In this document: piece by piece, positions 43,628-62,428 of the stretch
How positions within the stretch are numbered: the first letter of the stretch is position 1
Layout of the letters: every line of letters begins with the position of its first letter
Made by a program: the position numbers and the translations under genes
Assembly: GCA_024275485.1 (NCBI GenBank)
Contig: JAJRZA010000032.1
Span: forward strand, 1-64,000
DNA: 64,000 nucleotides
From: Candidatus Krumholzibacteriota bacterium
Lineage (GTDB): Bacteria; Krumholzibacteriota; Krumholzibacteriia; LZORAL124-64-63
Reading direction: 5' to 3'
The notes under the pieces: model-generated
The model's database searches: none
What the model was told of the DNA's origin: nothing
The model's input: only the letters and a program-made list of their open reading frames with translations

Positions 43628-44758
43628 ATGAGAAAGCAATCTCAAAAATTGGTCGCGAATCAATATTGGCTTATCGGGTGCCTCGCCCTGATTGTGGGGA
43701 CATTTCTGGCCTCGTCCAATGTTGCTAGTGCACAGGGATTGAGTCGGATCCACAAAGATGATGGTTCCGCCTACCTTGAGATGCAACGCGCAGACAAAGC
43801 CGCAGGTGATTACCACAACGGTGATCTTCTTATTTGTTCCGATTGCCATGTCATGCACGGTAGCATGCAACACAACTATGAAGGGACAACCTCGGGTGTT
43901 GGCAATATTGCTTCCTTCCCGTGGTCGACCACTCCGAGCCCCTCCTTGTTGAAGTTTGCCGATCCCGTGGATCTTTGTGTGTCCTGTCACGACGGCGTGG
44001 CCGGCATACCCGATGTAATCATGGGCGACATTAACGGCCTAACTGAGCGATCCGGTGGGTTCTTCGATGAAGTCGATGTTCTCAACCCCAGAGGGCACAA
44101 CCTGGGTCGTGGCCTGGATAATTCTGGCTCAAACTTATGCCTGCGGTGTCACTTCGGGGGAGATTTTGCAACGGCCTCAGTTACCTGCCTCGATTGTCAC
44201 AATACTCACGGAAACGGAAATCCACGCAACCTTCAGTGGGCGAGCGATCCTGAAGGAACTCCACCCCTTGGCTTGTTCGTTGCCTCGGGTGCCTCCGGCA
44301 TGAGTCGTTACGAACGCGCCAACGTTGCCTACGGTACCACCAATGACCTGAGCCTTCGGGAACCAACGAACATGTGCACAGATTGCCATCATACTTTAAC
44401 GGGCTCCTACACGGACCAGGATCTCAATGGCATCCACGAGAAACACCCTTCCTATGACAGCGAACGCGGTTTCCCCAACGATATCGACCAGGGTTTGGTC
44501 AGGGGAACCACCAACCCTGCCCACTGGGTTGCAGGCACGGGTCAGGGATTCGATGGGACGGAGCGGGTACCTTATGTGAATGAGGGCGGCACCGACTACG
44601 CCACTGCTCATGTCATCGATTCTTCAACCAACGGTGTGCTTTGCTTTTCCTGCCACAAGGCTCACGGCAGCGCCAGCGCCTTCGGTTTGGTTTGGACCAT
44701 CAACGGCGGCATCGACAACAAGGGCTGCGATCAGTGTCATTTGGGAGAAGGGCGTTAA
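43628..44758 (+). CDS. 7-haem c-type cytochrome (OmcS-like paralogue)
   Basis: 376 residues: a signal peptide to about residue 35 and seven CxxCH motifs (CSDCH, CVSCH, CLRCH, CLDCH, CTDCH, CFSCH, CDQCH). The opening DYHNGDLLICSDCHVMHGS and the closing CFSCHKAHGSASAFGL match the 6-haem cytochrome at 45811, so the two are paralogues. AAGGGGAAG precedes the ATG. First gene of the electron-transfer locus; it may be a second filament subunit or a cap/periplasmic partner. Confidence 0.88.
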   Translation: MRKQSQKLVANQYWLIGCLALIVGTFLASSNVASAQGLSRIHKDDGSAYLEMQRADKAAGDYHNGDLLICSDCHVMHGSMQHNYEGTTSGVGNIASFPWSTTPSPSLLKFADPVDLCVSCHDGVAGIPDVIMGDINGLTERSGGFFDEVDVLNPRGHNLGRGLDNSGSNLCLRCHFGGDFATASVTCLDCHNTHGNGNPRNLQWASDPEGTPPLGLFVASGASGMSRYERANVAYGTTNDLSLREPTNMCTDCHHTLTGSYTDQDLNGIHEKHPSYDSERGFPNDIDQGLVRGTTNPAHWVAGTGQGFDGTERVPYVNEGGTDYATAHVIDSSTNGVLCFSCHKAHGSASAFGLVWTINGGIDNKGCDQCHLGEGR

Positions 44759-44761
44759 GCT

Positions 44762-45757
44762 GTGAATCTACCTCGCGCATCATATCGGGTTTTCGGAGCT
44801 TCACTGGCAGCGTTGTTGCTGTTTGTGGTGCTGCTGCCTGTTGATGTTTCGGGTGAGGAAATGATCGGCATTCCTTTTACTATATACGGTATGGATGGCG
44901 GTCGGCCTTTCCTCACGCCACGCGGGCTGTTCTGTGACCTGCAGGTGGATGAAATCCTGGTGGCCGATGCCGGGGGGCACCGGATACAGATTTTTGATTC
45001 GGAGGGCTGGCCCAAATACGAGTTCATTCATTGGGTTGAACGCAACGGTGAACGCATCCAGGGTGAACCAGGCGCAGTGGCAGCTACCCCAGACGGCAAC
45101 ATTTTCATCATCGACATACTGAGTCTCGATATTTCCATCGTGAATTTTCGGGGATTGCCCCTGCGCAATATATCTGCGGCAGAGTTGCTGCCGGATCAAA
45201 ACGAGCCCGCTCTGGGAGTTTGCCTTGCTTTGGGGCCCGAAGGGCACATTTTTGCTATTTGCAAGGCAAACAATGACCATTTCATGGTTGAGATGACCAA
45301 TACCGGGGAGGTTATTGGTCGTGTGCTCATGGGACAGGCCGGAGACTTGAAGCAAGTCACCGGCATTGCGGTGGACGCGCAACGCGTGTACCTGTCCGAC
45401 CTGGCTGCAGAATCCTGCGTGCAGGTCTTCGACCGACAGGGACAGCGCCAATTGGCCTTCGGAATTCATGACACCGGTTGGGGGAATTTCTCTTTCCCCG
45501 CCGCCATTTCCGTGACCTCTCTTGGCCATATATGGGTTGTCGATCAGATCCGCCAGATCGTCAACAGTTTTGATGCCGAAGGAAAGTTCCTTGGTTATAT
45601 CGGAGGTAAGGGGATCGGCCCTGGATCAATGAGTTATCCATGCGCGGTCGCCAGAGATCGCCGGGATCGCATACTCGTGCTGGAAAAAGTCGGACGCCGC
45701 TGTCAGGCTTTTGTCCTGCCCGAAGGAGGTGGTGCGGCAAGCAATTCAGGTACTTGA
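44762..45757 (+). CDS. NHL-repeat beta-propeller, exported
   Basis: 331 residues with an N-terminal signal/anchor segment and six NHL-type blades (GRPFLTPRGLFCD...ILVADAGGHRIQIFD is the first; later VYLSDLAAESCVQVFD, IWVVDQIRQIVNSFD). It begins with a GTG 3 nt after the 7-haem gene. NHL proteins adjoin filament-cytochrome genes in Geobacter (I recall one next to omcS, not verified here), suggesting an assembly, peptidyl or docking function. Confidence 0.85.
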   Translation: MNLPRASYRVFGASLAALLLFVVLLPVDVSGEEMIGIPFTIYGMDGGRPFLTPRGLFCDLQVDEILVADAGGHRIQIFDSEGWPKYEFIHWVERNGERIQGEPGAVAATPDGNIFIIDILSLDISIVNFRGLPLRNISAAELLPDQNEPALGVCLALGPEGHIFAICKANNDHFMVEMTNTGEVIGRVLMGQAGDLKQVTGIAVDAQRVYLSDLAAESCVQVFDRQGQRQLAFGIHDTGWGNFSFPAAISVTSLGHIWVVDQIRQIVNSFDAEGKFLGYIGGKGIGPGSMSYPCAVARDRRDRILVLEKVGRRCQAFVLPEGGGAASNSGT

Positions 45758-45810: not shown

Positions 45811-46779
45811 GTGAGAATGCAACGAATCCTGTTGGTCACCGTGCTTGCTATCGCTTTTGCCGGCGTAGCCTTTGCCGGCGACTATCATAACGGCGCAACC
45901 CTGACATGTTCAGAATGTCATGTCATGCACGCCAGCCAAACCCATGGCTACAATGCGGATGGTGGGGGCTTCTTTGGTGCTCCCAACGGAGAAAACGAAG
46001 GTCTGCTGCGGGACGAGGTCAACGCACTGTGTTTGGGTTGCCATGACGGCCAGACCGCTTATCCAGATGTTATGGGCAACCAGACCGGTGCGGTCATTCG
46101 GGCGGCCGGTGCGCTGAATGACGGTACGGACACTGCCCCTTACTACAACGCTGACGGCCATACTCTTGGTTCGACGGAGCTTGTACCCGGTGGAAATGGA
46201 GCTAATTTCCCAGACGGTCTCAAGTGTGTCGATTGCCACAATCAACATGGTTACGGTGGGGGTACGAATCCCTGGCGTAATCTGTATGCCAACGGTCAAG
46301 TCATTAGTTACGAAACAGCAGCCACTCCGACCGGTGATTTTGATGTCACCCAGGCTGCCTCACTAAACTACTCATATGACAATCTGACCTTCAACAAGAC
46401 CACCCTTAACCCCACATTGTCTGCTTATGCCGACTATTGCAAGGGTTGCCACACCAATTTCCATGGCGCTGTTGGTGGCTCGGAAATCGGCGGCTCTGCT
46501 AGCGGTGGCTTTATTCGTCACCCGGCTACAGACGTAATCATTGGCGGTATTGGGGGGGGGCACTCCAGCTCGGCTGTGTTTGGCTCCCACACCAATAATG
46601 TTCTGGTCCAGACCGATGGGACCAACCTTACGCCATCCTGCTTCAGTTGCCATAAAGGCCATGGAAATCAGAATGCCTTCGGCCTGATCTTCATGGAAGG
46701 CACCGGCACCGTGACCGAAGAAGGCGACAACGGTACTGCCGCCAAGGCCTTGTGTGGACAGTGCCACGTTCAAGGCTGA
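45811..46779 (+). CDS. 6-haem OmcS-like cytochrome, candidate nanowire subunit
   Basis: 322 residues with a short signal peptide (1-22) and exactly six CxxCH motifs. Their order and neighbours follow OmcS of Geobacter: YHNGATLTCSECHVMH near the start, ALCLGCHDG, LKCVDCHNQHG, DYCKGCHTNFH followed by RHPA, SCFSCHKGHG and a C-terminal ALCGQCH. OmcS polymerises into conducting filaments through haems shared between subunits. The gene starts with GTG behind GGAGG. A G9 tract (46552-46560) lies inside it. A strong hairpin follows. The filament role is inferred. Confidence 0.85.
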   Translation: MRMQRILLVTVLAIAFAGVAFAGDYHNGATLTCSECHVMHASQTHGYNADGGGFFGAPNGENEGLLRDEVNALCLGCHDGQTAYPDVMGNQTGAVIRAAGALNDGTDTAPYYNADGHTLGSTELVPGGNGANFPDGLKCVDCHNQHGYGGGTNPWRNLYANGQVISYETAATPTGDFDVTQAASLNYSYDNLTFNKTTLNPTLSAYADYCKGCHTNFHGAVGGSEIGGSASGGFIRHPATDVIIGGIGGGHSSSAVFGSHTNNVLVQTDGTNLTPSCFSCHKGHGNQNAFGLIFMEGTGTVTEEGDNGTAAKALCGQCHVQG

Positions 46780-46817: not shown

Positions 46818-46849
46818 AATGGGATGGAGGGTTCGCCCTCCATCCCATT
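46818..46849 (+). terminator. Strong hairpin after the OmcS-like gene
   Basis: A perfect 14-bp stem (46818-46831 with 46836-46849) carries a TTCG tetraloop. A T-rich tract comes only after about 15 bases, so it may be a partial terminator or an RNA-stabilising 3' structure that raises expression of the upstream gene relative to the downstream ones. Confidence 0.7.
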
Positions 46850-46897: not shown

Positions 46898-48061
46898 ATG
46901 AAGGCTCATTTCTCTTCTCGCCTGGTTTTTGTGGTGACTGCCCTTCTGGTGGTTGTTTTTTATTTTTCACCTTCTCAAGGACAAATTCAGGATGGAGCAC
47001 ATACCGACCCTCTGCATGGTGTCGAGCGCGTGGTAACCATTCCCTCATCTCGAGGCACCTGCGTGCAGTGTCATGATATGCACGCCATGGACAGTGGACA
47101 GGTGACCGGCGAGGAACCCGCTTTATTTCGAGCCAACAACAACGCCCTGTGCTTTGATGTCTCCGGTGGGGGAGGCTGCCACAATGAGCCTGCGGTTAAC
47201 TACCCCATGCCCGATTCGGATTTCATGCCCGAATTCTCGCTCTATCCCGGCTACCCCGAGACCAATGCCGGTGGTGAAATAACCCATGGTGTGGATTTGC
47301 GCGGCCGGTGGCCGGGTTCCAGCGTTTATGAGAACAGCGGGCAGTATCTTGGGCGCGACTATTCTCCCCATTACCTGGACCCCGACATGCCACTGCAGGA
47401 CAATCTGGGTGGAGGAATGTGCCTCAATTGTCATTCTCCCCATGGCACGGACAATGCATTCGATCTTTTGACTGCCAATTACACCAACGCTGGTGGTCAT
47501 GCAGACTTCGGCACTCCTCCAAATCAGCAGTTGTGTTTTGATTGCCATGGTCCCAACGGACCGGGAGGGATGAACAGTTCCGGTCGGTTGATTGCCGACT
47601 ACTTCGACGAAAGCGTAAACCCTGGAACAGCGGGGCACCAAATCAGGCGCAACCCCGATATTGCTCTTTCCTGGCCGACATCGGTGCAGGTTGGGGACAA
47701 GTTGCCGTGTTATCTTTGCCACAACCCTCATGGCTCCAGGGGAGCCAATGGTTCCTCACCCAATACTTTTATGCTCAATGACGGGCGCCCCGGCTGGTCT
47801 GGTCTGACCGATCCACGTGGCAATGCCCAGGACTCGCGCACTATTTGTTTTGGTTGTCATATCCCTTCTGATGGAGTTCCCGGGTCGCGTGTGGTGATGG
47901 GCATTGTCATGAACACTATCCCGGACAAAGGCCCTCATCGAATGAGTTCGGCCCGTAGCTGTGCCGAGGTGCACGGCTCCCTGTATGATACTCCGAGCAG
48001 TGTTAACATCCACAACATTGTTGATGAGCAGAAGCGGGGACTGGAAGACTTCTGGAAATGA
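46898..48061 (+). CDS. 5-haem c-type cytochrome with two unusual extra sites
   Basis: 387 residues with a signal peptide (1-29). Five canonical motifs (CVQCH, CLNCH, CFDCH, CYLCH, CFGCH) plus a CX8CH (47150-47182, CFDVSGGGGCH) at the position where its relatives have a normal haem site, and a CAEVH (47960-47974) lacking the second Cys. Its ATGA overlap with the barrel gene suggests the two proteins form the porin-cytochrome complex, with this one inserted in or capping the barrel. Confidence 0.85.
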   Translation: MKAHFSSRLVFVVTALLVVVFYFSPSQGQIQDGAHTDPLHGVERVVTIPSSRGTCVQCHDMHAMDSGQVTGEEPALFRANNNALCFDVSGGGGCHNEPAVNYPMPDSDFMPEFSLYPGYPETNAGGEITHGVDLRGRWPGSSVYENSGQYLGRDYSPHYLDPDMPLQDNLGGGMCLNCHSPHGTDNAFDLLTANYTNAGGHADFGTPPNQQLCFDCHGPNGPGGMNSSGRLIADYFDESVNPGTAGHQIRRNPDIALSWPTSVQVGDKLPCYLCHNPHGSRGANGSSPNTFMLNDGRPGWSGLTDPRGNAQDSRTICFGCHIPSDGVPGSRVVMGIVMNTIPDKGPHRMSSARSCAEVHGSLYDTPSSVNIHNIVDEQKRGLEDFWK

Positions 48062-49743
48062 TGCCAAGTTGTTGCCAAAGCCCAATTGGGAACTGCCCCC
48101 TGCGGATGCGGCGCCTTGGTGCTCGTGAGTTGCTGGTTTTACAACTCGCCTTGTACAGCCTTTTCTTTGGCAATCCACCCGGAGTGCTGGCTGCTGAGAA
48201 TTCCGGGCGTATCCGTTTGAACTATAGTGAATCCAGCCGGTTGGGAATGGAAACGAGCCAGATTTTCCAGGAGTACAATGTTTCAAGCCAGGACGATATA
48301 TTCGGGGCCAACCGGCTCCGCCTGGATTTTCGGTGGGAACGCCTGGTCGATTATGAAATTGACAATTCGGTTGATCGCCCCACCTTGCGGGCCATGTTGA
48401 CCGGGCTCACCTATGAATTCACCATGCGTTATGCCCCTCTCCAGTACACCTCGCCCGCAGGACGCAGCTCCGGCTCCAAGGTTGAAGGCCTGCAGGCGGC
48501 CTGGCAGTATTGGCACGACGGCTTACCCCGGGTGAGATTGGAATACCGTGAAGACAAACGCCACCAGGCTGTGATCAACTTCAATACGTTTTCATCCGTG
48601 TCCCGGATGCGATTGGCGGAGTTGGATCATAGCATTGGCGGGCTTCGCTTCGGCGGCTCGTATCGCCACACCATCAATACGAGCACCTCCTCCAGTGCGG
48701 GCGACCGGGACGCTGGGACGGCCACCCTGCGGGCTTCTTTCGACCAGAAAATTTCACCCAGTCTGCGTTTCAGTGTCGGGGGTGACGTGCAGCGCTCCGA
48801 AGTGGATCAGGGAAGTTCCCCTACATCTGTCGGCCGCACTCGCAACCTGCGTGGCAACGCGGTCTGGAGTATTCTGGACAAACTTCAGGTTGGCGTGAGC
48901 GGTTTTTATCGAGAATCCCTCAGCGAGGGCGGCGGGCGACCATCCCTGTTTGATGCGAACCGTACTTTGGCCGCTCGAGCCGTCTTCAGGCCGATACCGG
49001 AGCTGGACTTGACCGTGCAGCGTGACATTCGGGATATCAATCGGCCTGACAACAATTCCTTTTTCGACGTCCTGCGTTTGCAGGCTGTATATTCGGGGAT
49101 GTTGCGCAGAGGTTTGCGGGCTCGCTTGACCGGGATGAAGAATGTTACCATCAAGACCGAGAATTCGCGCACTCCAGCCGATGCCACGGATATTACCCTG
49201 CATTTTAATATATTCCGTCGGGTCATTGCTCGAGCCTCATTGACGTACAACCGCCAGCAGCATCGTGACAGTGGATTCTTGAGTCAACACGCCGTCAACA
49301 AGATTTTTGAGATAAAATCCCAGCTCTCCCGGCTTTTTTTTATTCGCCTCGACTATAGGGGATCTCAGACTTCGCGAGCCTTCGAGTTTTTTGAAATTGA
49401 TTCGCATAATTATTCGGCAAATCTAAATTATACCAATCCGGCAGGATTTTCTTTGTCTGGGAGCGCGCGAAGATCGTTATTATTTGAGGGTGACCGTAGA
49501 AGTCAGACTTTCTTCGGCCTGAACATTGCTGGTCGCCTTACCGAAAATCTCAGTTTCACCCTCGACGGTACCTGGAGCGAACAATCGGCCATCGTGCTTG
49601 GCGGCAGTGCGGCCAGTTACAACGCAAGGATGAATTATAGGTTCAGCAGAAGCGCCTTTGTGACCGCAGGTTGGCAAACCTCCGGTAGGAACGGCGGACA
49701 AGGTGACGAATCGTTCTCAGCATCTTTTCAGGCAACGTTCTGA
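48058..49743 (+). CDS. Outer-membrane beta-barrel of a porin-cytochrome conduit
   Basis: 561 residues. After a signal-like segment ending ...GVLAAENSG (about residue 48), the chain is almost wholly alternating amphipathic strands (e.g. RLRLDFRWERLVDYEID, PRVRLEYREDKRHQA, ARMNYRFSRSAFVTAGWQ) and ends in a terminal Phe (SASFQATF), as required for outer-membrane insertion. Size and position between multihaem genes match the barrels of Geobacter-type conduits. Translation start overlaps the 5-haem gene. Confidence 0.85.
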   Translation: MMPSCCQSPIGNCPLRMRRLGARELLVLQLALYSLFFGNPPGVLAAENSGRIRLNYSESSRLGMETSQIFQEYNVSSQDDIFGANRLRLDFRWERLVDYEIDNSVDRPTLRAMLTGLTYEFTMRYAPLQYTSPAGRSSGSKVEGLQAAWQYWHDGLPRVRLEYREDKRHQAVINFNTFSSVSRMRLAELDHSIGGLRFGGSYRHTINTSTSSSAGDRDAGTATLRASFDQKISPSLRFSVGGDVQRSEVDQGSSPTSVGRTRNLRGNAVWSILDKLQVGVSGFYRESLSEGGGRPSLFDANRTLAARAVFRPIPELDLTVQRDIRDINRPDNNSFFDVLRLQAVYSGMLRRGLRARLTGMKNVTIKTENSRTPADATDITLHFNIFRRVIARASLTYNRQQHRDSGFLSQHAVNKIFEIKSQLSRLFFIRLDYRGSQTSRAFEFFEIDSHNYSANLNYTNPAGFSLSGSARRSLLFEGDRRSQTFFGLNIAGRLTENLSFTLDGTWSEQSAIVLGGSAASYNARMNYRFSRSAFVTAGWQTSGRNGGQGDESFSASFQATF

Positions 49744-49777: not shown

Positions 49778-50356
49778 ATGGCTACCTTTGTAAAACGAAC
49801 GATGTTTGTCTGCCTGATCGGGCTCGGCCTCCTGGCCGGCTGCGGATCACCTCCGGTGTTCATCGAGCCGGAAGCGGACCTCGACTTCTATGACAGGGTT
49901 GCTGTTACGCCCTTCTGGGTTACCAATGGCGATCGGGGGGCAAGCGATTTGGTCTCCGATGCCTTTGTTACGGCCCTCATGATTTCGGAAAAGTACGGTG
50001 TTGAGGAGCCGGGCCTATTTCGGCATATGCTTGACGATGTTGCCGATCAGACCAGCACATCCAATCGTGGGTTGAAGCCTGAGATGGTCAAGGAACTGGG
50101 GGTGCTTGCCAAGGTCGAGGCCATATTCGAAGGAACGGTGCTCGCCTACGAGATGACTCGCATTGGCCAAAACCAGTACCCGCTTATTTCGGTGGAGTTG
50201 AGGATGATCGATGCCCAGACCGGACGACTGGTCTGGTCTACTACGGTGACCAAAAAAGGCGGTCCCGGTTTCCCCTTCTTCGGCTTTGGTGAGACGCGTA
50301 CCCTGCCGGAATTGGCGGCCAAGGTTGTCGAAGATCTCGTTTCAAGGGTGCCTTGA
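49778..50356 (+). CDS. Lipoprotein, CsgG-like fold (1 of 2)
   Basis: 192 residues, lipobox LLAGC (Cys at about residue 22). The core DRVAVTPFWVTN, DLVSDAFVTALM, GLFRHMLDD and ELGVLAKVEAIFEGTVLAYE fits the alpha/beta pattern of CsgG/LpoB-type outer-membrane lipoproteins. It is shorter than CsgG, so a pore cannot be claimed. Co-transcribed with the next lipoprotein (1 nt gap). Confidence 0.68.
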   Translation: MATFVKRTMFVCLIGLGLLAGCGSPPVFIEPEADLDFYDRVAVTPFWVTNGDRGASDLVSDAFVTALMISEKYGVEEPGLFRHMLDDVADQTSTSNRGLKPEMVKELGVLAKVEAIFEGTVLAYEMTRIGQNQYPLISVELRMIDAQTGRLVWSTTVTKKGGPGFPFFGFGETRTLPELAAKVVEDLVSRVP

Positions 50357-50357
50357 T

Positions 50358-50942
50358 ATGGGAACTCGTTGCCACTTGTCCCTTGGGACTACCCTGTTTT
50401 TGCAGCTTTCGCTGCTGGTTTTTTTGACCGGCTGTGGGTCTGGTGTGCGGCACAACACCGTTCACGATTTTCCCGGGGACCGGCCTTACCGATTGGCTGT
50501 GCTGCCCCTAACAAATCTAACGACTGACCCCAGTGCTGCCGATGTTCTGGGTAACGCCATTGCCGTCGAACTTTTGAATACTTCCGGCTTCGAGCTGGTT
50601 GACGCCATGGTTGTCAATTCCGCTCTCAGTCGTCACAGAATTCGTTATGCGGATAGAATGAACAAGGAACAGTTCACGGCCCTGGGTGGGGAACTAGGTG
50701 TGGATGGAGTTCTGGTGGGTGCCGTTCATGCCTACGAGTATCGCCAGGAGGAGGATGGTCCGGTGCCCATGGTTTCTTTGCATACACGGATTGTGGATGT
50801 GGCCGAGGGGCAAATCATCTGGGTCGCCATGCAGACTCGTGTGGGAACCGACGGCGAATTCCTCCTGGGAATTGGCCTGGAAAAATCCCTTCCCCGACTT
50901 GGCTCCATGGTGGTTCACGACATCGTCGAAACTTTGCGTTGA
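50358..50942 (+). CDS. Lipoprotein, CsgG-like fold (2 of 2)
   Basis: 194 residues, lipobox FLTGC (Cys at about residue 26), then YRLAVLPLTNLTTDPSAADVLGNAI, AVELLNTSGFELVDA and LGVDGVLVGAVHAYE, a clear relative of its neighbour and of the CsgG/LpoB/FlgO group. Starts with an ATG 2 nt after the previous stop. A role in assembling or exporting the cytochrome complex is possible. Confidence 0.68.
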   Translation: MGTRCHLSLGTTLFLQLSLLVFLTGCGSGVRHNTVHDFPGDRPYRLAVLPLTNLTTDPSAADVLGNAIAVELLNTSGFELVDAMVVNSALSRHRIRYADRMNKEQFTALGGELGVDGVLVGAVHAYEYRQEEDGPVPMVSLHTRIVDVAEGQIIWVAMQTRVGTDGEFLLGIGLEKSLPRLGSMVVHDIVETLR

Positions 50943-50956
50943 AAGGTGGCATCTTG

Positions 50957-51427
50957 ATGAGATTTGCATTCAGCCTGCTGGTGGGTCTTTTCCTTTTCGT
51001 GCCTGTTGTGAGCGGAGCCGAAGAGGTTACAACGCCCGAGGGAAAATCCGGGCGAGATCCATCTACCATCACAGTGGTGGTGCGTCACCGGGTGGTTCCT
51101 GATTTTGCCGATACTATAGAGGTCGTCTGGGGAACGGGTGAACTGTACTGGATCGGCGATACGGAGTACAGCCTTGAGGTCGAGCGTTTCGTGGCCGATT
51201 TCGGCATCAACGAGACGGGGGAAATAATCGAGCGCGGCACCGAGGCCCACAACCCCGCTTGCCATGTGGTTATTTACAAGGATGATGTTGAGGAGGATAG
51301 GGTCTGGTCGTTTTTCGGAACGGGTGCACCTCATTTCCGACGTGAGTCCATCCTGTCGGTGGATATTGCTTCTTTTCCCTGGCACGGTGTTGTGTTGACC
51401 GAACCGATCCCTCGGGAGGCCAAGTAA
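50957..51427 (+). CDS. Small exported ResB-like/DUF2155-like protein
   Basis: 156 residues with a signal peptide (1-20). The stretch GTGELYWIGDTEYSLEVERF, ...AHNPACHVVIYKDDVEEDRVWSFFGTGAPHF resembles the extracytoplasmic beta-domain of ResB cytochrome-c-biogenesis proteins and DUF2155 proteins; the match is from memory and weak. Lying directly before the 41-haem gene (adjacent codons), it may help haem attachment or folding. AAAGGTGG precedes the ATG. Confidence 0.55.
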   Translation: MRFAFSLLVGLFLFVPVVSGAEEVTTPEGKSGRDPSTITVVVRHRVVPDFADTIEVVWGTGELYWIGDTEYSLEVERFVADFGINETGEIIERGTEAHNPACHVVIYKDDVEEDRVWSFFGTGAPHFRRESILSVDIASFPWHGVVLTEPIPREAK

Positions 51428-54400
51428 ATGTTTTGTAAATTGATCCCTCGATACAGCACTCCATTTTTTGCTGCTCTAGTCGTGATGGTGACTTTCCTTG
51501 TGATCGCCGACCCCGGGTTTGCCGAACGAAAACGGAAGGAATGCCTGGATTGCCATGATGAGATGATTCCGCTGATTGACCGTCAGTTTGTGCATGAACC
51601 GTTCAAGGAAAAAAAGTGCATGGATTGTCACAAGCGCCATGGCTTCTCCCAGAATCTGGTGCTCAAGAGTTCCCCTCCTGAACTTTGCGCCGACTGCCAC
51701 ACCGATCAGATGCCTGCCGCTGATGTGGCCGTTCCTCATGCACCCGTCACTGAAGGCTACTGTACGGGCTGCCATGACCCCCACTCATCCAACTATCCTG
51801 CCCTGGTCAGAGGAAGCCGTCCGGGAGGCGTATGCCTGCCTTGTCACATCGAGGTAAAAGACGATCTTGATGGTCCCCAGGGTCATAAACCCTTCATGGA
51901 TGGCGATTGCAGTGCCTGCCACGATGCCCACGGCAGCGACAATTCCGTCATGCTGGCCGTACCCCAAACAGATGTTTGCCTGGGTTGTCATGCCAAGATC
52001 GATGTTGCGGACCATTTCGGTGTGGCTACAAACGATCAGTCCTGCACCGATTGTCACGATGCTCACCTGGCCACGAAGGACTCGGTATTGCGCAGTGACG
52101 CTCACCCGCCCTTTGCCGAGGGAAGTTGCTCCGACTGTCATGCCGAGGGAACGGGTGATGTTGCCGGCGACGTTCTCGAATCAGGGCCCTCACTTTGTTT
52201 TGAATGCCATGACGATATTGAAGAGCAGTCCGGACTGGCCTTTGCTCATGAGCCGGTTACCGAAGATTGTCAGAATTGCCACGATCCCCATCAATCAAGC
52301 TTTTCCACCTTGTTAATGGCCGAGCAAGGCGAAGTTTGCCTTGAGTGCCATGACGACCCGACTGAAGAAGAGGGAATCCAGAGCGTGCACCAGCCGTTCG
52401 AAAATGGTGAATGCTCCTCCTGCCATGATCCCCATGGCAGCGACCGGGAACTGTTGCTATCGGCTGAGGGTGACGGGCTGTGCGCTGCCTGCCATCAAGA
52501 GCTGATGACCAAGGCGGAGCAGGCGGAAACCTCACACCCCGCCCTGGACGAGGGCTGTATTTCCTGTCATCAACCACATGCCTCCAACGAACGTAGATTA
52601 TTGGCTGGCCAGCAGAGAACCCTTTGCCGGGAATGCCACGAAGAAACAGTAGTGGCCCCTGTTGGAGTTCTGCAGCATGTGCCTTTCCAGGCCGGGGCCT
52701 GCAACGAGTGCCACAATCCTCACGGGTCCAATCAATCGAATATGTTGGTGGACATGGCACCTGCGGATAATTGTGTGCGTTGCCATACCTCGCTGGGAAA
52801 GAGTTTCAAGGCGGGCAAGGGGCACGACCCCTTTGTTGAGGGAGATTGCGGTATTTGCCACGCGGCTCACTTCTCGGCGGAACCTGCGGCCTTGTTGGTT
52901 GCTCCCATCCAGGCATTGTGTTCCGATTGCCATGATGATCTGGATGGGGAGCTTTCCCGTTCCCACCTTCACACACCCGTTAGCCGTGGTGACTGCACTG
53001 CCTGCCACAATCCTCATGACAGCGAGAGAGGCTCGCTTCTGATTGCCTCGGGTTCCCAGTTGTGTCTGGGCTGTCATCTGGAAATAGCCGAGATCACCCA
53101 GCTGGCTGTGGTGCATGAACCGGCAGGCGATGGCGACTACCGGGTTTGCCATGAAGTTCATGGGTCGGACAACCCCATGGGGCTTACCGCCCCGGTGGCG
53201 GAACTCTGCGCCGAGTGCCACGATGTGGACACCGAAGAGTTCTTCACCAGTCACGGCGGTCTGGCCAACGGAAACTCCCGCTGCACTGCCTGTCACAACC
53301 CCCATGGTTCCACCGACCCCATGCTGTTGAACCGCATGGTCCATTCACCTTTTGAAGACAAGGACTGTGCTTCCTGCCACGACGACCATACTCCTGAGCA
53401 GCTTGCCGTTGAAACGGCCAGCCTTTGCAGCGACTGCCATGATCAGCCGGATGAGTTTGCCGAGAAAAGTCAAATCCATTCACCGGTTGCCGAGGGCGAC
53501 TGCACCGCATGCCACGACCCCCACACCGCTCGCAAGGATCTACTTCTGCGTTCTGCTGTGCCGGAGCTGTGCGCCAAGTGCCATGATGAGATCGTTTATC
53601 CTGCTGACGGGATCAACCAGCATCGGCCGGTGGAACAGGGTCTGTGTCTCGATTGCCACCAATCCCATGCCGGTGATCACAAGTCGCTTCTAAAGGATAC
53701 AGGTGACCATCTGTGTCTCGGCTGTCATGAGGCTCTCAAGCAGAGGCTCGACACTGGAGCCCCGCATGCCCCGGTGGCTGATGGCGATTGCACCGTTTGT
53801 CACAATGGTCATAATTCAGCCCAGGAGGCCCTGCTCAACCAGCCGGTGAGTTTGCTTTGCGCCGAGTGCCACGATGTGGAAGGTCTGGAAATCACAACGG
53901 CTCATTCCGGTTTCGAGGTCAAGGAAGCCAATTGCGTAATCTGTCATGATCCTCATGTTTCAGTGGATGACGGCGGAAAATTCCTGCGACCGGTCAGGCA
54001 CGAACCGTTTGCCGATGGCGACTGCTCATCGTGCCATGAGTCCGGGAGCAATCTGGTTTCACAACCTGCGCCTCAACTCTGTCTGGAATGCCACGACGAA
54101 TTCTCGGAAATTCTGGAGACGAAGGGAGTTCATGCGGCTCTTAAAAGCGAAAATTCCTGCCTTTCCTGCCATTCTCCCCATGCGGGCTTCGAGGGTTTGG
54201 TCAATCGCTCTTCAGAGAAGGAGACCTGCATGCGCTGCCATGATCGCCAGGAATTTGAATGGGAATACCGGCACGAACCCATGGAAGAGGCCTGCAGCAA
54301 TTGTCATAACCCACATACGGGAGAAAAACCACTTCTGTTGGATCTCGACATCATGGACCTTTGTCTGGAATGTCATGAGATCCATCCCCACCCCATGGGC

Positions 54401-54550
54401 GGAGAGTACAAGGATCCCCGGACTGACGGTCCACTGACCTGTGTCAGTTGCCACTCACCCCACTCTTCGGATATAAAACAGCTGTTGACCCATGAAAAGG
54501 GGCGGGCTCTGTGCGTTCAGTGCCATGTGGGCGCCATGGGGGCTCATTGA
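51428..54550 (+). CDS. 41-haem c-type cytochrome built from doubled CxxCH modules
   Basis: 1040 residues with a signal peptide (1-31). I count 41 CxxCH motifs and one variant, YRVCH (53138-53152). They come as about 21 repeats of 45-50 residues, each with the pattern H.PF..GDC..CHDPHGS....LL......LC..CH, i.e. the doubled-CxxCH family. No membrane helix or sorting domain is seen after the signal, so it is periplasmic or exposed on the surface through partners. End-to-end such a chain could span the periplasm or extend outside. ATG follows the preceding stop directly. Confidence 0.92.
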   Translation: MFCKLIPRYSTPFFAALVVMVTFLVIADPGFAERKRKECLDCHDEMIPLIDRQFVHEPFKEKKCMDCHKRHGFSQNLVLKSSPPELCADCHTDQMPAADVAVPHAPVTEGYCTGCHDPHSSNYPALVRGSRPGGVCLPCHIEVKDDLDGPQGHKPFMDGDCSACHDAHGSDNSVMLAVPQTDVCLGCHAKIDVADHFGVATNDQSCTDCHDAHLATKDSVLRSDAHPPFAEGSCSDCHAEGTGDVAGDVLESGPSLCFECHDDIEEQSGLAFAHEPVTEDCQNCHDPHQSSFSTLLMAEQGEVCLECHDDPTEEEGIQSVHQPFENGECSSCHDPHGSDRELLLSAEGDGLCAACHQELMTKAEQAETSHPALDEGCISCHQPHASNERRLLAGQQRTLCRECHEETVVAPVGVLQHVPFQAGACNECHNPHGSNQSNMLVDMAPADNCVRCHTSLGKSFKAGKGHDPFVEGDCGICHAAHFSAEPAALLVAPIQALCSDCHDDLDGELSRSHLHTPVSRGDCTACHNPHDSERGSLLIASGSQLCLGCHLEIAEITQLAVVHEPAGDGDYRVCHEVHGSDNPMGLTAPVAELCAECHDVDTEEFFTSHGGLANGNSRCTACHNPHGSTDPMLLNRMVHSPFEDKDCASCHDDHTPEQLAVETASLCSDCHDQPDEFAEKSQIHSPVAEGDCTACHDPHTARKDLLLRSAVPELCAKCHDEIVYPADGINQHRPVEQGLCLDCHQSHAGDHKSLLKDTGDHLCLGCHEALKQRLDTGAPHAPVADGDCTVCHNGHNSAQEALLNQPVSLLCAECHDVEGLEITTAHSGFEVKEANCVICHDPHVSVDDGGKFLRPVRHEPFADGDCSSCHESGSNLVSQPAPQLCLECHDEFSEILETKGVHAALKSENSCLSCHSPHAGFEGLVNRSSEKETCMRCHDRQEFEWEYRHEPMEEACSNCHNPHTGEKPLLLDLDIMDLCLECHEIHPHPMGGEYKDPRTDGPLTCVSCHSPHSSDIKQLLTHEKGRALCVQCHVGAMGAH

Positions 54551-54617: not shown

Positions 54618-54779
54618 TACCATGTCAGATGCGTGATAAAAATGATACTCAAAGTCAAAAAATAAACAAATTCTGTTATTTTTCTTGTAGGTTGTTGCAA
54701 CAATATGCTATAATCCTAGCAACAACCTTGGATATCCCAAGATTTGTATGCTGCATTCCCCAATCAGCAAGGAAATCCC

Positions 54780-57719
54780 ATGCGAACCACCACCTTTTTT
54801 ATCCTGGTAGTTTCATGTCTATTTGTCCTGGGATCCGATTCCTACGCCACGGTGGATCATCGGGATTTGGTCGAAGGGGATTGTATTTCCTGTCATGCGG
54901 GTCATGTGCGGGCTTTCTCCGGTCAAGCCGGTGAAAAGGCTGCCAACCACCAGGGACTTTCTTGCCTGACTTGCCACGATTTCCATTCTAATCCTGCCAA
55001 TCTGAGTTTTGTACCCGAACAAATCGAGACGCCAAACAGTGGTACCAGATCAGTTGTTTTCACTGCCCGCACTGGTCCGGACTCCTTTGCCGACGGCGAT
55101 GCCGTCTACGATGGTGTGTGTGAAGTGTGCCATACCATGACGGGTTATCATCGCAATGATGGATCCGTCAGCCAGGCCCACAATACCGCAACCGATTGCA
55201 CTGCCTGCCATCCTCATGAAGAAGGATTCTCACCAGTGGGCGGTAGTTGTCTCGACTGCCATTCCATTCCGCGTGGTTCCGGGGGATATCGTCGCCAAAT
55301 TGTTGAAAACAGCGGGGACGGCGGCGGTGATTTCGTACTGACGAGTCATCATGTCACTGATGGTACCCAGAACGAGTTGGTGACCGCAGGCGACTGTATC
55401 GTTTGCCACGATCAGGGCAACCACATGTCCTATGGAGACGGTGTGTCGGTTTACTTGCGCGATCCCAACGGCGGAGCTTCGATTGTCTACGACGGCACTC
55501 CCCAGTCTGTTGAAACCTGGTGTCTGGCTTGTCACGACGGCACCCACACCAGTCCTTTCAGCGACGGTCAGCCTGCCCCTGATCTGTCGACCTGGGATGG
55601 ATCGGCCCACGGAGCGACTTCAGCCACCTGTCTCGATTGCCACGACAATGGCCATGGCAGCGGTAACCTGCACATGGTGGCTACCACCATCGCCACACCC
55701 AACAGCGGCAATCTGCCCGTGAACTTCTCGTCACTAACCGGACCCGGTTCCTTTGCCGATGGCGACGCTGTCTATGATGGCGTTTGTGAGGTATGCCACA
55801 CCGGCACTGCTTTCCATCGAAACGATCCATCCGGCGACCACAGCCATTTTGTTGCCCAGGATTGTACAGCCTGCCATGGGCATGATGTTGGTTTCCAGCC
55901 CACTGCCGGCTCCTGCACCCAGTGCCATAATTCGGAACAGGGCCCAGGCGGATACCGGCGCCAAGTTGTTTCAGGGGTTGGCGGAAACGGCGAGTTCGTC
56001 CTGCTGAGTCACCACGTTTCAGACGGTACCCAAAACCAGATAGTCCAGGACTCGGACTGTGTGGTTTGTCATGACCAGACCAATCACATGACCTACAGTG
56101 ATGGTGTTTCGGTGTTGCTGGTCGATCTTTCCACAGGAAGTCCCGTACTCTATAACGGCACACCTGCAACCTTGGAACCATTTTGTTTGGGTTGCCACGA
56201 TGGTACCCAAACGGCACCCTTCTCCGATGGCAATCCGGCTCCCGACATGTCGGGATGGAACGGGGCCAGCCACAGCCCGGCGGGTTCCACCTGCGCCCAA
56301 TGCCACACCAACGGGCATGGAACCGACAACCTGGCTCTCATCGGAACCCAGATAGAGACACCCAACAATGGTGTGCTTCCGGTAGTGTTCACCTCCTGGA
56401 CCGGCCCCAACAGCATGGCCGATGGCGATGGTATCTACGACGGTATCTGCGAAGTTTGCCACACGGCCACGACTTACCATCGTAACAACGCTTCCGGCAA
56501 CCATGGGCACAACTCAGGCAACGACTGTCGGGCGTGCCATGATCACAATACCGGGTTTTCACCCCAGGCCGGTTCTTGCCTCGCTTGCCACAACACAACC
56601 CAGGGCTCCGGAGGATACCGCCGCCAGGTTGTTGAGAACAACAATGACGGAGGTGGTGATTTCGTGCGCGTCAGCCACCATGTCAGCGATGGCTCGACCA
56701 CCGAGATCGTCACCGAGGGCGACTGTGTGGTTTGCCACAACCAGTCCCAACACATGACCTTCACCGATGGCGTGTCCGTACTTCTGGAAGACCCCGCTGG
56801 TGGTCCAACCATCACCTACGATGGCTCAACCGGATCGATCACCGGTTTCTGTGCTGCCTGCCACGACGGCACTCCGGCCTCACCGCCATTTTCGGACGGC
56901 AATACTCCACCCAACGTTCTGGCAACCTGGCCATCATCAGCCCATGGTACCGCCAACAATGCACCTTGTGGAGAGTGCCACACCAATGGACACGGTGGAG
57001 ACAACCAGCAGATGTTGACCGCTCGCTACGATCGCCAAGACTATCTGAATTATAGCAGTGCCCGCTACGCCCTGTGCTGGCAGTGCCACAATGAAAATAC
57101 CATCGTCTTTGGCAACAATTCCTTCGAGGATCTGCACGACAAGCACGTTGTCGGTGAGGACTCGGCCTGTGTGTTGTGCCATCAGCCCCATGGGCCCTTC
57201 GATGATGGTGAAGCCGGAAATATTGATTTCAGCTACGGTCTGGACAACGGCTTCGACATTCAACTGATCGACGGCTACACGCGCTCCACCGCGTTCTGGA
57301 CCTCGGGCAATACGGGCTTCTGCTACATAGCTTGTCATGGCAAGGACCATACTCCCAAGGATTATCGTCGGGATCTGGTCCTTCAGGCGAGGGACTTGTC
57401 CGGGCAAGTGGAGGGCGTTGGCCCCTTCGTTTCTGCCAGGAGTTATCCTGTTCCCAGCCGTGGCCCGGTCACCATTGTCTTGCAGCAGGGAGAAAAGGCA
57501 GACAAGGCCCAGGTTAGTGAGTGGGTGGAGGTTACCATCTACGACATCTCCGGTCGCCGTATTCGTGACCTCTCCTTCGACCATGGAGGGGCGGATGATG
57601 CCACACTCTTCTGGGACGGTTTGGATGCCGCGGGACACAGCGTTCAATCTGGTGTTTACTTCTGTCGGGTTTCCACCCGTGAGTCAAGTCGAACCTTGAA
57701 AATGGTGATTGTTCGTTGA
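54780..57719 (+). CDS. 22/23-haem cytochrome with three large repeats and a C-terminal sorting domain
   Basis: 979 residues with a signal peptide (1-23), 22 CxxCH motifs and one CX3CH (CYIACH, 57321-57338). Three tandem copies of a 222-residue unit (period about 666 bp, starting near 55020, 55686 and 56350) each hold six haems and shared blocks such as DGVCEVCHT, GGYRRQVV and HHVSDGT. The last 80 residues are FlgD-like (VEVTIYDISGRRIRDL, SGVYFCRV, MVIVR), the same C-terminal domain as on the exported enzymes here, so this cytochrome is probably on the cell surface. AAGGAA precedes the ATG at 54780. Confidence 0.9.
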   Translation: MRTTTFFILVVSCLFVLGSDSYATVDHRDLVEGDCISCHAGHVRAFSGQAGEKAANHQGLSCLTCHDFHSNPANLSFVPEQIETPNSGTRSVVFTARTGPDSFADGDAVYDGVCEVCHTMTGYHRNDGSVSQAHNTATDCTACHPHEEGFSPVGGSCLDCHSIPRGSGGYRRQIVENSGDGGGDFVLTSHHVTDGTQNELVTAGDCIVCHDQGNHMSYGDGVSVYLRDPNGGASIVYDGTPQSVETWCLACHDGTHTSPFSDGQPAPDLSTWDGSAHGATSATCLDCHDNGHGSGNLHMVATTIATPNSGNLPVNFSSLTGPGSFADGDAVYDGVCEVCHTGTAFHRNDPSGDHSHFVAQDCTACHGHDVGFQPTAGSCTQCHNSEQGPGGYRRQVVSGVGGNGEFVLLSHHVSDGTQNQIVQDSDCVVCHDQTNHMTYSDGVSVLLVDLSTGSPVLYNGTPATLEPFCLGCHDGTQTAPFSDGNPAPDMSGWNGASHSPAGSTCAQCHTNGHGTDNLALIGTQIETPNNGVLPVVFTSWTGPNSMADGDGIYDGICEVCHTATTYHRNNASGNHGHNSGNDCRACHDHNTGFSPQAGSCLACHNTTQGSGGYRRQVVENNNDGGGDFVRVSHHVSDGSTTEIVTEGDCVVCHNQSQHMTFTDGVSVLLEDPAGGPTITYDGSTGSITGFCAACHDGTPASPPFSDGNTPPNVLATWPSSAHGTANNAPCGECHTNGHGGDNQQMLTARYDRQDYLNYSSARYALCWQCHNENTIVFGNNSFEDLHDKHVVGEDSACVLCHQPHGPFDDGEAGNIDFSYGLDNGFDIQLIDGYTRSTAFWTSGNTGFCYIACHGKDHTPKDYRRDLVLQARDLSGQVEGVGPFVSARSYPVPSRGPVTIVLQQGEKADKAQVSEWVEVTIYDISGRRIRDLSFDHGGADDATLFWDGLDAAGHSVQSGVYFCRVSTRESSRTLKMVIVR
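55020..57015 (+). repeat. Three tandem 666-bp in-frame repeats
   Basis: Units start near 55020, 55686 and 56350. Each encodes the TP.N.G...V.FT..TGP.S.ADGD..YDG.CEVCHT opening and ends with a GHG.....N block. Divergence is moderate, indicating old duplications kept in frame. Confidence 0.8.
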
Positions 57720-59816: not shown

Positions 59817-61463
59817 ATGGATGGTGACGGCCTGTTTCATCATGTTGCTGGTTGCGCCGATTGCCACGATTTCCGCAACGGCTCCAACAACCTGATGTTT
59901 GTCAGGGATTCCATCAGCACCCCGAATTCGGGTGATCTTTCGGTGGTGTTCACTGCTTCAAGCGGTGCGAACTCATTTGCCGACGGTGACAACGTTTACG
60001 ATGGCATTTGCGAAGTCTGCCATACCAGCAGCTCCCATCATCAGAACAGCGACAATGGCGATCACGCCCACCATGCCGGGTCGTCCTGTGTCTCATGTCA
60101 TTCACACACGGACGAATTTCACCCAAGCGGGTTCCCTGATCATTCCTTGTTTGTAAGTCCTTTTATCGATGATGGAAACGGGGTTCCCTCGACCACCCCG
60201 GCAACCTGTACGGCCAATTGTCATTCGACTTCATTCGGCACTGATGAAAATAACCCAAAAGTCCATGACAGCTGTTTGATTTGCCATGATGGGGTGACTT
60301 CACCTGTCACCCTGATTTCAGGTTTCAACAACCTGCTGTATGGCGGGGATGCCACGGGCCAATACGTGCCGGAAACCAATCCATTCAATAATTGCTTTAC
60401 CTGCCATGGAACCTCCAATCAAACCACCTCCAGCCAAATGTACCCCAATATTGGCACGCATACTGGACAGGTCGAAGCAACAACCGACGGAACCTGCGAA
60501 ACCTGTCATGTGGACCTGGCCGATGCCATGGTTCAACCCCTGAACAACGCCGGTCATGCCGGCTGCTCAAGCTGCCACATGGAACCTTCCATGGTTTTGG
60601 TCGGATCGGCCGAAAATGGGCCGGGAAACTGCGTTGATTGCCACGGTAATGAGAGCGTTGTTCACGACACCGCGGTTCTGCACAACAACAGGGTTCTCGG
60701 TGGTCTCATTGCCGATTGTTCCAGCTGCCATGATGTGACCACCGGCGGGTTTTTCGACCAGTCCAAGATCGATACCATCCACACCACTTGTGCCACCTGC
60801 CACGATTACCAGGGCACCAACCCAAACATCAATATGATCCAGGTGCAAACGACCATTGCTTTCGGAACGAACACCGGTACGGTGAATTGTGAAAATTGCC
60901 ATGAAGGCGGGTTTGGGCTGGTGCATGGTCAAGCGGTGGATCATGCCTCCATCGTGGTGACCAGTGGTCCGGAATGCGTAGGATGCCACACCAACACCAA
61001 TCTGGTGGATCCTGGCGATCCCAAGTCCCACAGTGGGTGCTTCAACTGTCATGAAGATGATGGTATGCTTTTTGTGGGTGCGGGAGGAAACTATGACGTG
61101 ACGGCCTTGCCGGGTGGTGGAGTTTGCGTCGATTGTCATACCGGACCCTGGCACCTGATGGTTTATCACAACGGCTGGAACCAACGTCATTATTTGGATG
61201 GTGGATATTTCGCCTGCGACCAGGTGATGGCCACCAACTGCGCCGGCTGCCACCTGCCGGCCATCGTGGAAGGTGATTATCCAGCCCATGAGAATTACCT
61301 GGTTGCCGTAAAATACGCCATTGGTAGCCTTCACTGGAACGGCAGTTGCAACGCTTGTCATTTGACGAATAATAGCGGATTGAGAAGTCCTGCGGTACTT
61401 GGGGGGGGAATTTGCTGGGATTGCCATGTCGGGTATAACGATGGTTCCCATTTTGGTAAGTAG
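59817..61463 (+). CDS. 17/18-haem c-type cytochrome, probably a lipoprotein
   Basis: 548 residues from the first in-frame ATG. There are 17 CxxCH motifs and one CX3CH (CTANCH, 60207-60224). The true start is probably upstream: the same frame is open from 59649 and encodes FIVLILFFGFSGC, a lipobox, followed by a Pro/Asp-rich linker. An in-frame ATG at 59634 is separated from it by a TAG (59646). The opening domain resembles the repeat unit of the 22/23-haem protein (DGICEVCHT). A G8 tract (61401-61408) lies near the 3' end. Confidence 0.85.
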   Translation: MDGDGLFHHVAGCADCHDFRNGSNNLMFVRDSISTPNSGDLSVVFTASSGANSFADGDNVYDGICEVCHTSSSHHQNSDNGDHAHHAGSSCVSCHSHTDEFHPSGFPDHSLFVSPFIDDGNGVPSTTPATCTANCHSTSFGTDENNPKVHDSCLICHDGVTSPVTLISGFNNLLYGGDATGQYVPETNPFNNCFTCHGTSNQTTSSQMYPNIGTHTGQVEATTDGTCETCHVDLADAMVQPLNNAGHAGCSSCHMEPSMVLVGSAENGPGNCVDCHGNESVVHDTAVLHNNRVLGGLIADCSSCHDVTTGGFFDQSKIDTIHTTCATCHDYQGTNPNINMIQVQTTIAFGTNTGTVNCENCHEGGFGLVHGQAVDHASIVVTSGPECVGCHTNTNLVDPGDPKSHSGCFNCHEDDGMLFVGAGGNYDVTALPGGGVCVDCHTGPWHLMVYHNGWNQRHYLDGGYFACDQVMATNCAGCHLPAIVEGDYPAHENYLVAVKYAIGSLHWNGSCNACHLTNNSGLRSPAVLGGGICWDCHVGYNDGSHFGK

Positions 61464-61600: not shown

Positions 61601-62428
61601 ATGGGCACATTTTGGAGAATTCTTCTTCCTATAGCCATTTTAGTCAGACTAATGATGGGGTACGCTTGGGCCGATCAGCCACCCGAGCATCTTTCTTTGG
61701 AGTGCGCCACCTGCCATGATTGGCATCCTGGGGGAGATCTTCCAGTGGATGAGGCATGCATGGGTTGCCACGAAACCTGGCTGCCGGAACATGATGCTGC
61801 TGCTGGCGTCTTTCATGATCCTACCGACCGGTCATGTTCCAGGTGTCACGGATATCACAGTACGGAAATGCTGAAGGCGACTGGAAATTTCTTTCAGAGA
61901 CCTTATGGTGAAGCTCAGGTCTTGCGCCATTGTTCCAGTTGCCATCGATATGATAATGGTCTGGACACCATTTCCGATGGCCACGTGATGGCTGCCGCCC
62001 AGCAATATCACCAGGATTCTTACCAGCTTTTGATAGTTGGTTTGTCTGAAGCCTGTATGAATTGCCATGACGAGGATAGCGAAAATCCGGACACTCCTCC
62101 GGCGACTCCGGCTTTTCCTGCCCATGCCAGTCATCCCATCGGTCTTGGTATTCCACCACAATCTCCATGGGAATTTAGTGGGTTTCGAGAAGAAATCGCA
62201 ACGGATCTTGAGCTCTTTGACGATCAAATGGAATGCACTACCTGCCATCGTATTCCCGCTCCAACGGTGTTTCGCCTGGTTCCTTTTCCAACGGTCACCG
62301 ATCTTTGCAATGGTTGTCACGACATGGCTCCAGGCTTACCCGGTCCGATGGCGGCGAACGGCCCGGCCATCAATAAACTCAATATTGGGAATCTTGCCAG
62401 GGACTCATTTTCCATGGTGAAAAAATAA
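61601..62428 (+). CDS. 7-haem c-type cytochrome
   Basis: 275 residues with a signal peptide (1-25) and seven CxxCH motifs (CATCH, CMGCH, CSRCH, CSSCH, CMNCH, CTTCH, CNGCH) at irregular spacing. It has no obvious family beyond multihaem c. GGAGG lies 9 nt before the ATG. As a small soluble protein beside the NapC/NirT gene it is a candidate periplasmic shuttle. Confidence 0.85.
   Translation: MGTFWRILLPIAILVRLMMGYAWADQPPEHLSLECATCHDWHPGGDLPVDEACMGCHETWLPEHDAAAGVFHDPTDRSCSRCHGYHSTEMLKATGNFFQRPYGEAQVLRHCSSCHRYDNGLDTISDGHVMAAAQQYHQDSYQLLIVGLSEACMNCHDEDSENPDTPPATPAFPAHASHPIGLGIPPQSPWEFSGFREEIATDLELFDDQMECTTCHRIPAPTVFRLVPFPTVTDLCNGCHDMAPGLPGPMAANGPAINKLNIGNLARDSFSMVKK

Follow-up and report, generated by a model that had tools for sequence, protein, structure and literature searches.

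A shorter sister family of OmcS, encoded with NHL and giant MtrA-like companions, as a candidate nanowire system of uncultured phyla

To our knowledge, the export, anchoring and electron feeding of OmcS-type nanowires are poorly understood, and almost all knowledge of them comes from Geobacter. OmcS of Geobacter sulfurreducens (PDB 6ef8, 6nef) is a hexahaem protein and forms an extracellular nanowire, in which each subunit supplies 11 of its 12 haem ligands itself and receives the remaining one, that of haem 505, from its neighbour (PMC6584659). The physiological roles of OmcS filaments are disputed (PMC11077965). Homologues of OmcS outside Geobacter are already known, as they were described in syntrophic sulfate reducers (PMC10553843), in a Coriobacteriales genome (PMC7399161) and in general terms (PMC12954529).

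The clustering of OmcS homologues with porin conduits and the presence of NHL proteins beside extracellular cytochromes are likewise known. The Oet cassette of syntrophic sulfate reducers and Geobacter (OmcS-like/OmcX/Apc2a) combines OmcS-like genes with a porin-cytochrome conduit, as the locus described here does, and a filament plus conduit has been proposed for it (PMC10553843). PCC3 of iron-oxidising Gallionellaceae resembles our locus in having a porin and a very large periplasmic multihaem cytochrome, with 21–27 haems and thought to be of sufficient length to cross the periplasm (PMC10734462). Extracellular multihaem cytochromes are also accompanied by NHL-repeat proteins, as here, in Uet of Tenderia and Gallionella and in Desulfovibrio ferrophilus DFE_0448-0465 (PMC10734462, PMC9769857).

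The window, namely the whole stretch of 64,000 nucleotides analysed in this study, is from Candidatus Krumholzibacteriota and belongs to contig 14 of a 3.98 Mb assembly (106 contigs, 96% complete). The gene of interest, at 45811-46779 on the forward strand like all parts of the cluster given below, starts with GTG behind the ribosome-binding site GTGGAGG and encodes an OmcS-like hexahaem cytochrome of 322 aa as the preprotein and about 300 aa in the mature form. Its Sec-type signal peptide (about 45811-45876) ends with VAFA, directly before GDYH, and the cytochrome carries no lipobox. The six CxxCH motifs are C33 (CSECHVMH), C74 (CLGCHDG), C139 (CVDCHNQHG), C210 (CKGCHTNFH), C277 (CFSCHKGH) and C315 (CGQCH); RHPA follows the C210 motif at 236–239, and the C315 motif lies 8 residues from the C-terminus. 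A preceding reading of the sequence alone had claimed the motif order and local residues of OmcS in a protein shortened mainly in its loops, and both points were borne out against the 407-residue mature OmcS sequence verified in PDB 6ef8/6nef. The motif spacings are 41/65/71/67/38, compared with 38/93/99/89/72 in OmcS, indicating that the shortening lies in the loops.

OmcS was not found at E<1 when the single sequence of the product was searched against PDB by phmmer; therefore, a profile is needed to see the relationship. With a profile of 12 orthologues, OmcS alone was significant among all PDB sequences (E=1.2e-9), the next match being at 0.23. The comparison with OmcS and OmcE that the sequence-only reading had suggested was made with a profile of 68 relatives against 177,635 PDB sequences, and OmcS was the best match over the full length (E=4.7e-19, positions 5–318 of 320), followed by another multihaem cytochrome at E=9e-4 and by photosynthetic reaction-centre cytochromes and OmcE at E=0.01. 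In the profile–profile alignment by hhalign, the family and the OmcS clade were aligned over 279 columns, that is, the whole length, with a score of 250. Another hexahaem family of the locus, taken as a control, reached only 105 columns and a score of 100, and its profile matched OmcS in PDB only at E=0.13 over 54 residues. These far lower scores indicate that the mere presence of CxxCH motifs does not account for the OmcS match. Pfam and NCBIfam contain just generic multihaem models that match the family, and the product is identical to OmcS at 25% of 252 aligned residues. Judged from these comparisons, whose full-length signal is specific to OmcS, the product is almost certainly a true but distant OmcS homologue.

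The haem ligands were compared among 101 hexahaem relatives, in all of which the six CxxCH motifs are invariant. The equivalents of OmcS H16, H110, H147, H257 and H335 (H40, H117, H146, H237 and H284 in the precursor) are present in 100–101 of these relatives, and the His at the position of H16, the inter-subunit haem ligand in OmcS, is invariant in all of them. The equivalent of OmcS H2, the mature N-terminal His (H26 in the precursor), is aligned in 83; among the remaining 18, one is a truncated reading and 17 have a longer N-terminus in which Gly-x-Tyr-His closely follows the signal peptide. Since these six distal-type His are essentially universal and each is aligned to an OmcS His, they are enough for six bis-His haems, and the product combines them with six CxxCH motifs in the OmcS order. 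A seventh His, equivalent to OmcS H247, is found in only 79 of the 101. The CxxCHxxH motif occurs widely among multihaem cytochromes, where the second His is able to bind a haem of its own chain.

Concerning the predicted fold, a first AlphaFold2 model built from 12 sequences had a pLDDT of 33 and was discarded, and a single-chain model built from 68 sequences, all from outside the OmcS clade, reached a pLDDT of 83 and a pTM of 0.81. Foldseek against 350,542 PDB chains returned OmcS as the sole significant match of this model (E=4.5e-4, probability 0.99), in agreement with an OmcS-like predicted fold; the global superposition is partial, as the TM scores of 0.47/0.37 and the rmsd of 11.7 indicate. 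The model had no match in a viral structure library. The tetrahaem nanowire protein OmcE (PDB 7tfs), whose weak profile match concerns the N-terminal part, was not significant in Foldseek (E=4.8), and OmcE was rejected as the parent family on these two E values and on having four haems against the six of the window protein.

In the tree, the window protein falls in a separate clade of 51–53 rows (support 98), outside the OmcS clade, and OmcS itself groups with genes of the window's own phylum (support 99). Canonical OmcS orthology was rejected on this ground. Accordingly, of the assignment as OmcS-like, homology stood on the profile, profile–profile, fold and His comparisons and on the NHL gene conserved upstream, and orthology did not, given the tree and the low identity; by sequence, the product belongs to a shorter sister family of OmcS. 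A group of heptahaem proteins forms a further branch of 15 rows. The sister family is found in genomes labelled Zixibacteria, Eisenbacteria, Armatimonadota and Deltaproteobacteria in addition to the window's phylum. The 12-sequence profile was run at E≤1e-15 against sets of genomes centred on individual records, and it matched 22 of 132 genomes for Zixibacteria, 14 of 47 for Eisenbacteria and 9 of 251 for Armatimonadota; in the class to which a record with the title Deltaproteobacteria belongs, it matched 21 of 63. Some heptahaem or weaker members are included in these counts. The full-length short type is present in 4 of the 80 genomes of the window's own phylum and OmcS-clade genes in 25 of them, with up to four per genome. 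The two types overlap in none of the 80; as the overlap expected by chance is itself only about one genome, we make no claim of mutual exclusion.

The cluster around the gene begins with a heptahaem paralogue of the OmcS-like protein at 43628-44758 (376 aa, 7 CxxCH), which is 40% identical to it over 209 aa and matches the family profile at E=8e-34; members of the heptahaem clade adjoin the OmcS-like gene in many Zixibacteria. The NHL gene that the sequence-only reading had placed before the cytochrome is indeed found at 44762-45757 and encodes a secreted NHL beta-propeller protein (Pfam NHL E=7e-13). A 14-bp perfect hairpin with a TTCG loop (46818-46849) separates the OmcS-like gene from the next cytochrome gene, and the RNA fold of the intergenic stretch containing it has −48.4 kcal/mol (z=−5.7); the hairpin is probably a terminator, attenuator or mRNA stabiliser. 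The gene that follows (46898-48061) encodes a multihaem "doubled CXXCH" protein, with 5 intact CxxCH motifs here and 6 in most orthologues, which is presumed to be a conduit or adaptor. Genes of this type stand directly downstream of the OmcS-like gene in all loci with this kind of cluster.

Overlapping the latter gene by 4 nt, the gene at 48058-49743 encodes a 561-aa protein that is probably an outer-membrane beta-barrel, judged from its composition (alternating hydrophobicity, z=3.6 against shuffles), the C-terminal Phe in all 5 orthologues and the conserved position. Its profile matched no family, known porin or MtrB/OmbB-type protein in PDB and Pfam. Two lipoprotein genes follow. Lipoprotein A (49778-50356, lipobox LLAGC) is CsgG/PelC-like, with Pfam CsgG at E=2.4e-8 and profile matches to PDB PelC and putative lipoproteins at 3e-5 to 1e-3; lipoprotein B (50358-50942, lipobox FLTGC) is LpoB/GNA1162-like by Pfam, is paralogous to lipoprotein A and is kept next to it. 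The next gene (50957-51427) encodes a secreted 156-aa protein and is conserved in this position, after lipoprotein B and before the giant cytochrome.

The giant MtrA-like cytochrome (51428-54550) carries 41 CxxCH motifs and one degenerate site, YRVCH at aa 571–575, in which one Cys was lost in the window copy; nearly all other complete copies, from three groups of phyla, have 42. The giant cytochromes have one haem site every 24–25 residues. The window copy matches the NCBIfam DmsE/MtrA-type decahaem family at E=8e-135, and its C-terminal 155 residues (aa 881–1035) match chain A of the Mtr complex 6r2q at E=1e-16, so that the cluster contains an MtrA-like periplasmic multihaem cytochrome of the kind belonging to Mtr/PCC conduits. 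Further multihaem genes lie downstream in the window at 54744-57719, 59817-61463 and 61601-62428, with 22, 17 and 7 CxxCH motifs, and a similar multihaem run follows the cluster in a Zixibacteria locus (L165).

The neighbourhood, which the sequence-only reading had not recognised beyond the NHL gene, is conserved. Of the 76 distinct members whose flanking DNA is long enough, 57 have an NHL gene immediately upstream in the same orientation, and 9 of the 19 others occupy the second or a later place in a tandem array. The sequence-only reading had placed an NHL gene before omcS as well, and such a gene is directly upstream of 5 canonical OmcS-clade genes. The 41–42-haem MtrA-like cytochrome is near both short-type and OmcS-clade genes in three groups, and many loci also carry the barrel and the two PelC/CsgG-like lipoproteins. 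The order in the window, from the OmcS-like gene through the multihaem protein, barrel, lipoprotein A, lipoprotein B and small secreted protein to the giant, is common to the G020, G047, G053 and Eisenbacteria loci as far as the contigs reach, with no NHL gene in the G047 and G053 loci. Zixibacteria have the same parts in a different order, and the canonical OmcS-clade loci examined in the window's phylum (from L012, L021-L024 and L138-L157) have the order giant, NHL and OmcS. With an NHL gene and a 42-haem giant beside both, two diverged OmcS lineages keep the same companions. The OmcS-sister family thus recurs in uncultured phyla with the companions of true OmcS, and these neighbours, kept by both lineages, are concrete candidates for the machinery by which nanowires are assembled and charged.

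Compared with the described systems, the window protein shares the CxxCH order and the six distal-type His with OmcS of G. sulfurreducens but differs in mature length (about 300 versus 407 residues), in the identity given above and in its separate clade, and its neighbourhood differs from that of OmcS in the 41–42-haem MtrA-like protein, the barrel and the PelC/CsgG-like lipoproteins. The giant 41–42-haem gene and the paired lipoproteins are absent from the Oet description in the available part of its report, and the two systems are set apart by description (PMC10553843). The giant has about twice the length of the PCC3 cytochromes, with 41–42 haems against 21–27, and the extracellular partner is a small OmcS-type protein in the window, whereas it is a 10–35-haem cytochrome in PCC3 (PMC10734462). 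Uet differs in its tetrahaem extracellular cytochrome, which occurs with a prolyl isomerase, the families being compared by description only. The open literature searched contained no joint report of OmcS and Krumholzibacteriota, no mention of a 42-haem cytochrome together with "periplasm" and no description of the short family, its near-fixed NHL partner or the 42-haem pairing. The short OmcS-sister family and its cluster therefore appear to be undescribed in the open literature searched.

The reading that we favour, with moderate confidence, is that the product is the building unit of a nanowire, which receives electrons from a haem wire across the periplasm by way of a conduit in the outer membrane; that it polymerises into filaments at all is reasonably probable. 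Outside the cell, copies of the hexahaem cytochrome joined head-to-tail would form a filament of stacked haems. The 41–42-haem protein would span the periplasm with its MtrA-like C-terminal end sitting in the barrel, the multihaem protein would relay electrons at the outer membrane, and the chain of haems would continue outwards in the OmcS-like protein. The NHL propeller may aid export, assembly or capping of the filament, and the hairpin could raise the mRNA level of the filament gene above that of the conduit genes. Polymerisation, inter-subunit ligation, conduit geometry and the direction of electron flow are what we infer here. With these parts, the cluster looks like a complete wire from the inside of the cell to the outside in several uncultured phyla.

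The product might instead be a secreted or surface cytochrome that stays a monomer or small oligomer and serves, without polymerising, as a terminal reductase or capacitor at the outer face of the conduit, which we regard as possible and rather unlikely. The nanowire case rests on homology and fold, the shorter loops could remove filament contacts, the neighbouring heptahaem paralogue indicates that the scaffold has diversified, and the MtrC/OmcA-like proteins that work with porin conduits do not form filaments. However, the equivalent of H16, the inter-subunit ligand in OmcS, and likewise the exact number of six distal His are invariant across the 101 relatives, and the two to four tandem copies of the OmcS-like gene in some Armatimonadota are expected of filament subunits, although they are not conclusive.

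The nanowire-subunit reading can be carried further, to a self-contained nanowire machine in several uncultured phyla, in which the 42-haem wire would dock through the barrel on the filament base, a PelC/CsgG-like ring would export the cytochrome and the NHL protein would start or chaperone assembly. PelC and CsgG form rings at the outer membrane, and an export role of lipoprotein A, which resembles both, is therefore conceivable. As a whole this extended scheme is doubtful; if true, the machine would be a candidate route for the export and anchoring of OmcS-type nanowires.

That the product stays inside the outer membrane, as an electron shuttle or redox partner in the periplasm, is improbable. 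Only a Sec-type signal peptide is visible, and we know of no signal for export across the outer membrane in OmcS-type proteins, which would suit such a shuttle. Yet the closest solved relative is an extracellular filament, and with the barrel, the lipoproteins and a 42-haem cytochrome of periplasm length nearby, there is little need for another shuttle. Acquisition of a canonical OmcS from Geobacter-like bacteria, as the shared motif order and NHL neighbour might suggest, is extremely improbable given the two separate clades in the tree and a window genome in which no OmcS-clade match was found at E≤1e-20.

Two further observations include features judged by eye. In Armatimonadota loci L006 and L007, from 12598 onward, a long protein with nine CxxCH motifs lies downstream of two tandem OmcS-like genes and has a barrel-like C-terminal part, possibly representing a fused cytochrome-porin. 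In a Zixibacteria locus (L045:2555-4744), the gene after the OmcS-like gene resembles a CcmF-type cytochrome c maturation protein.
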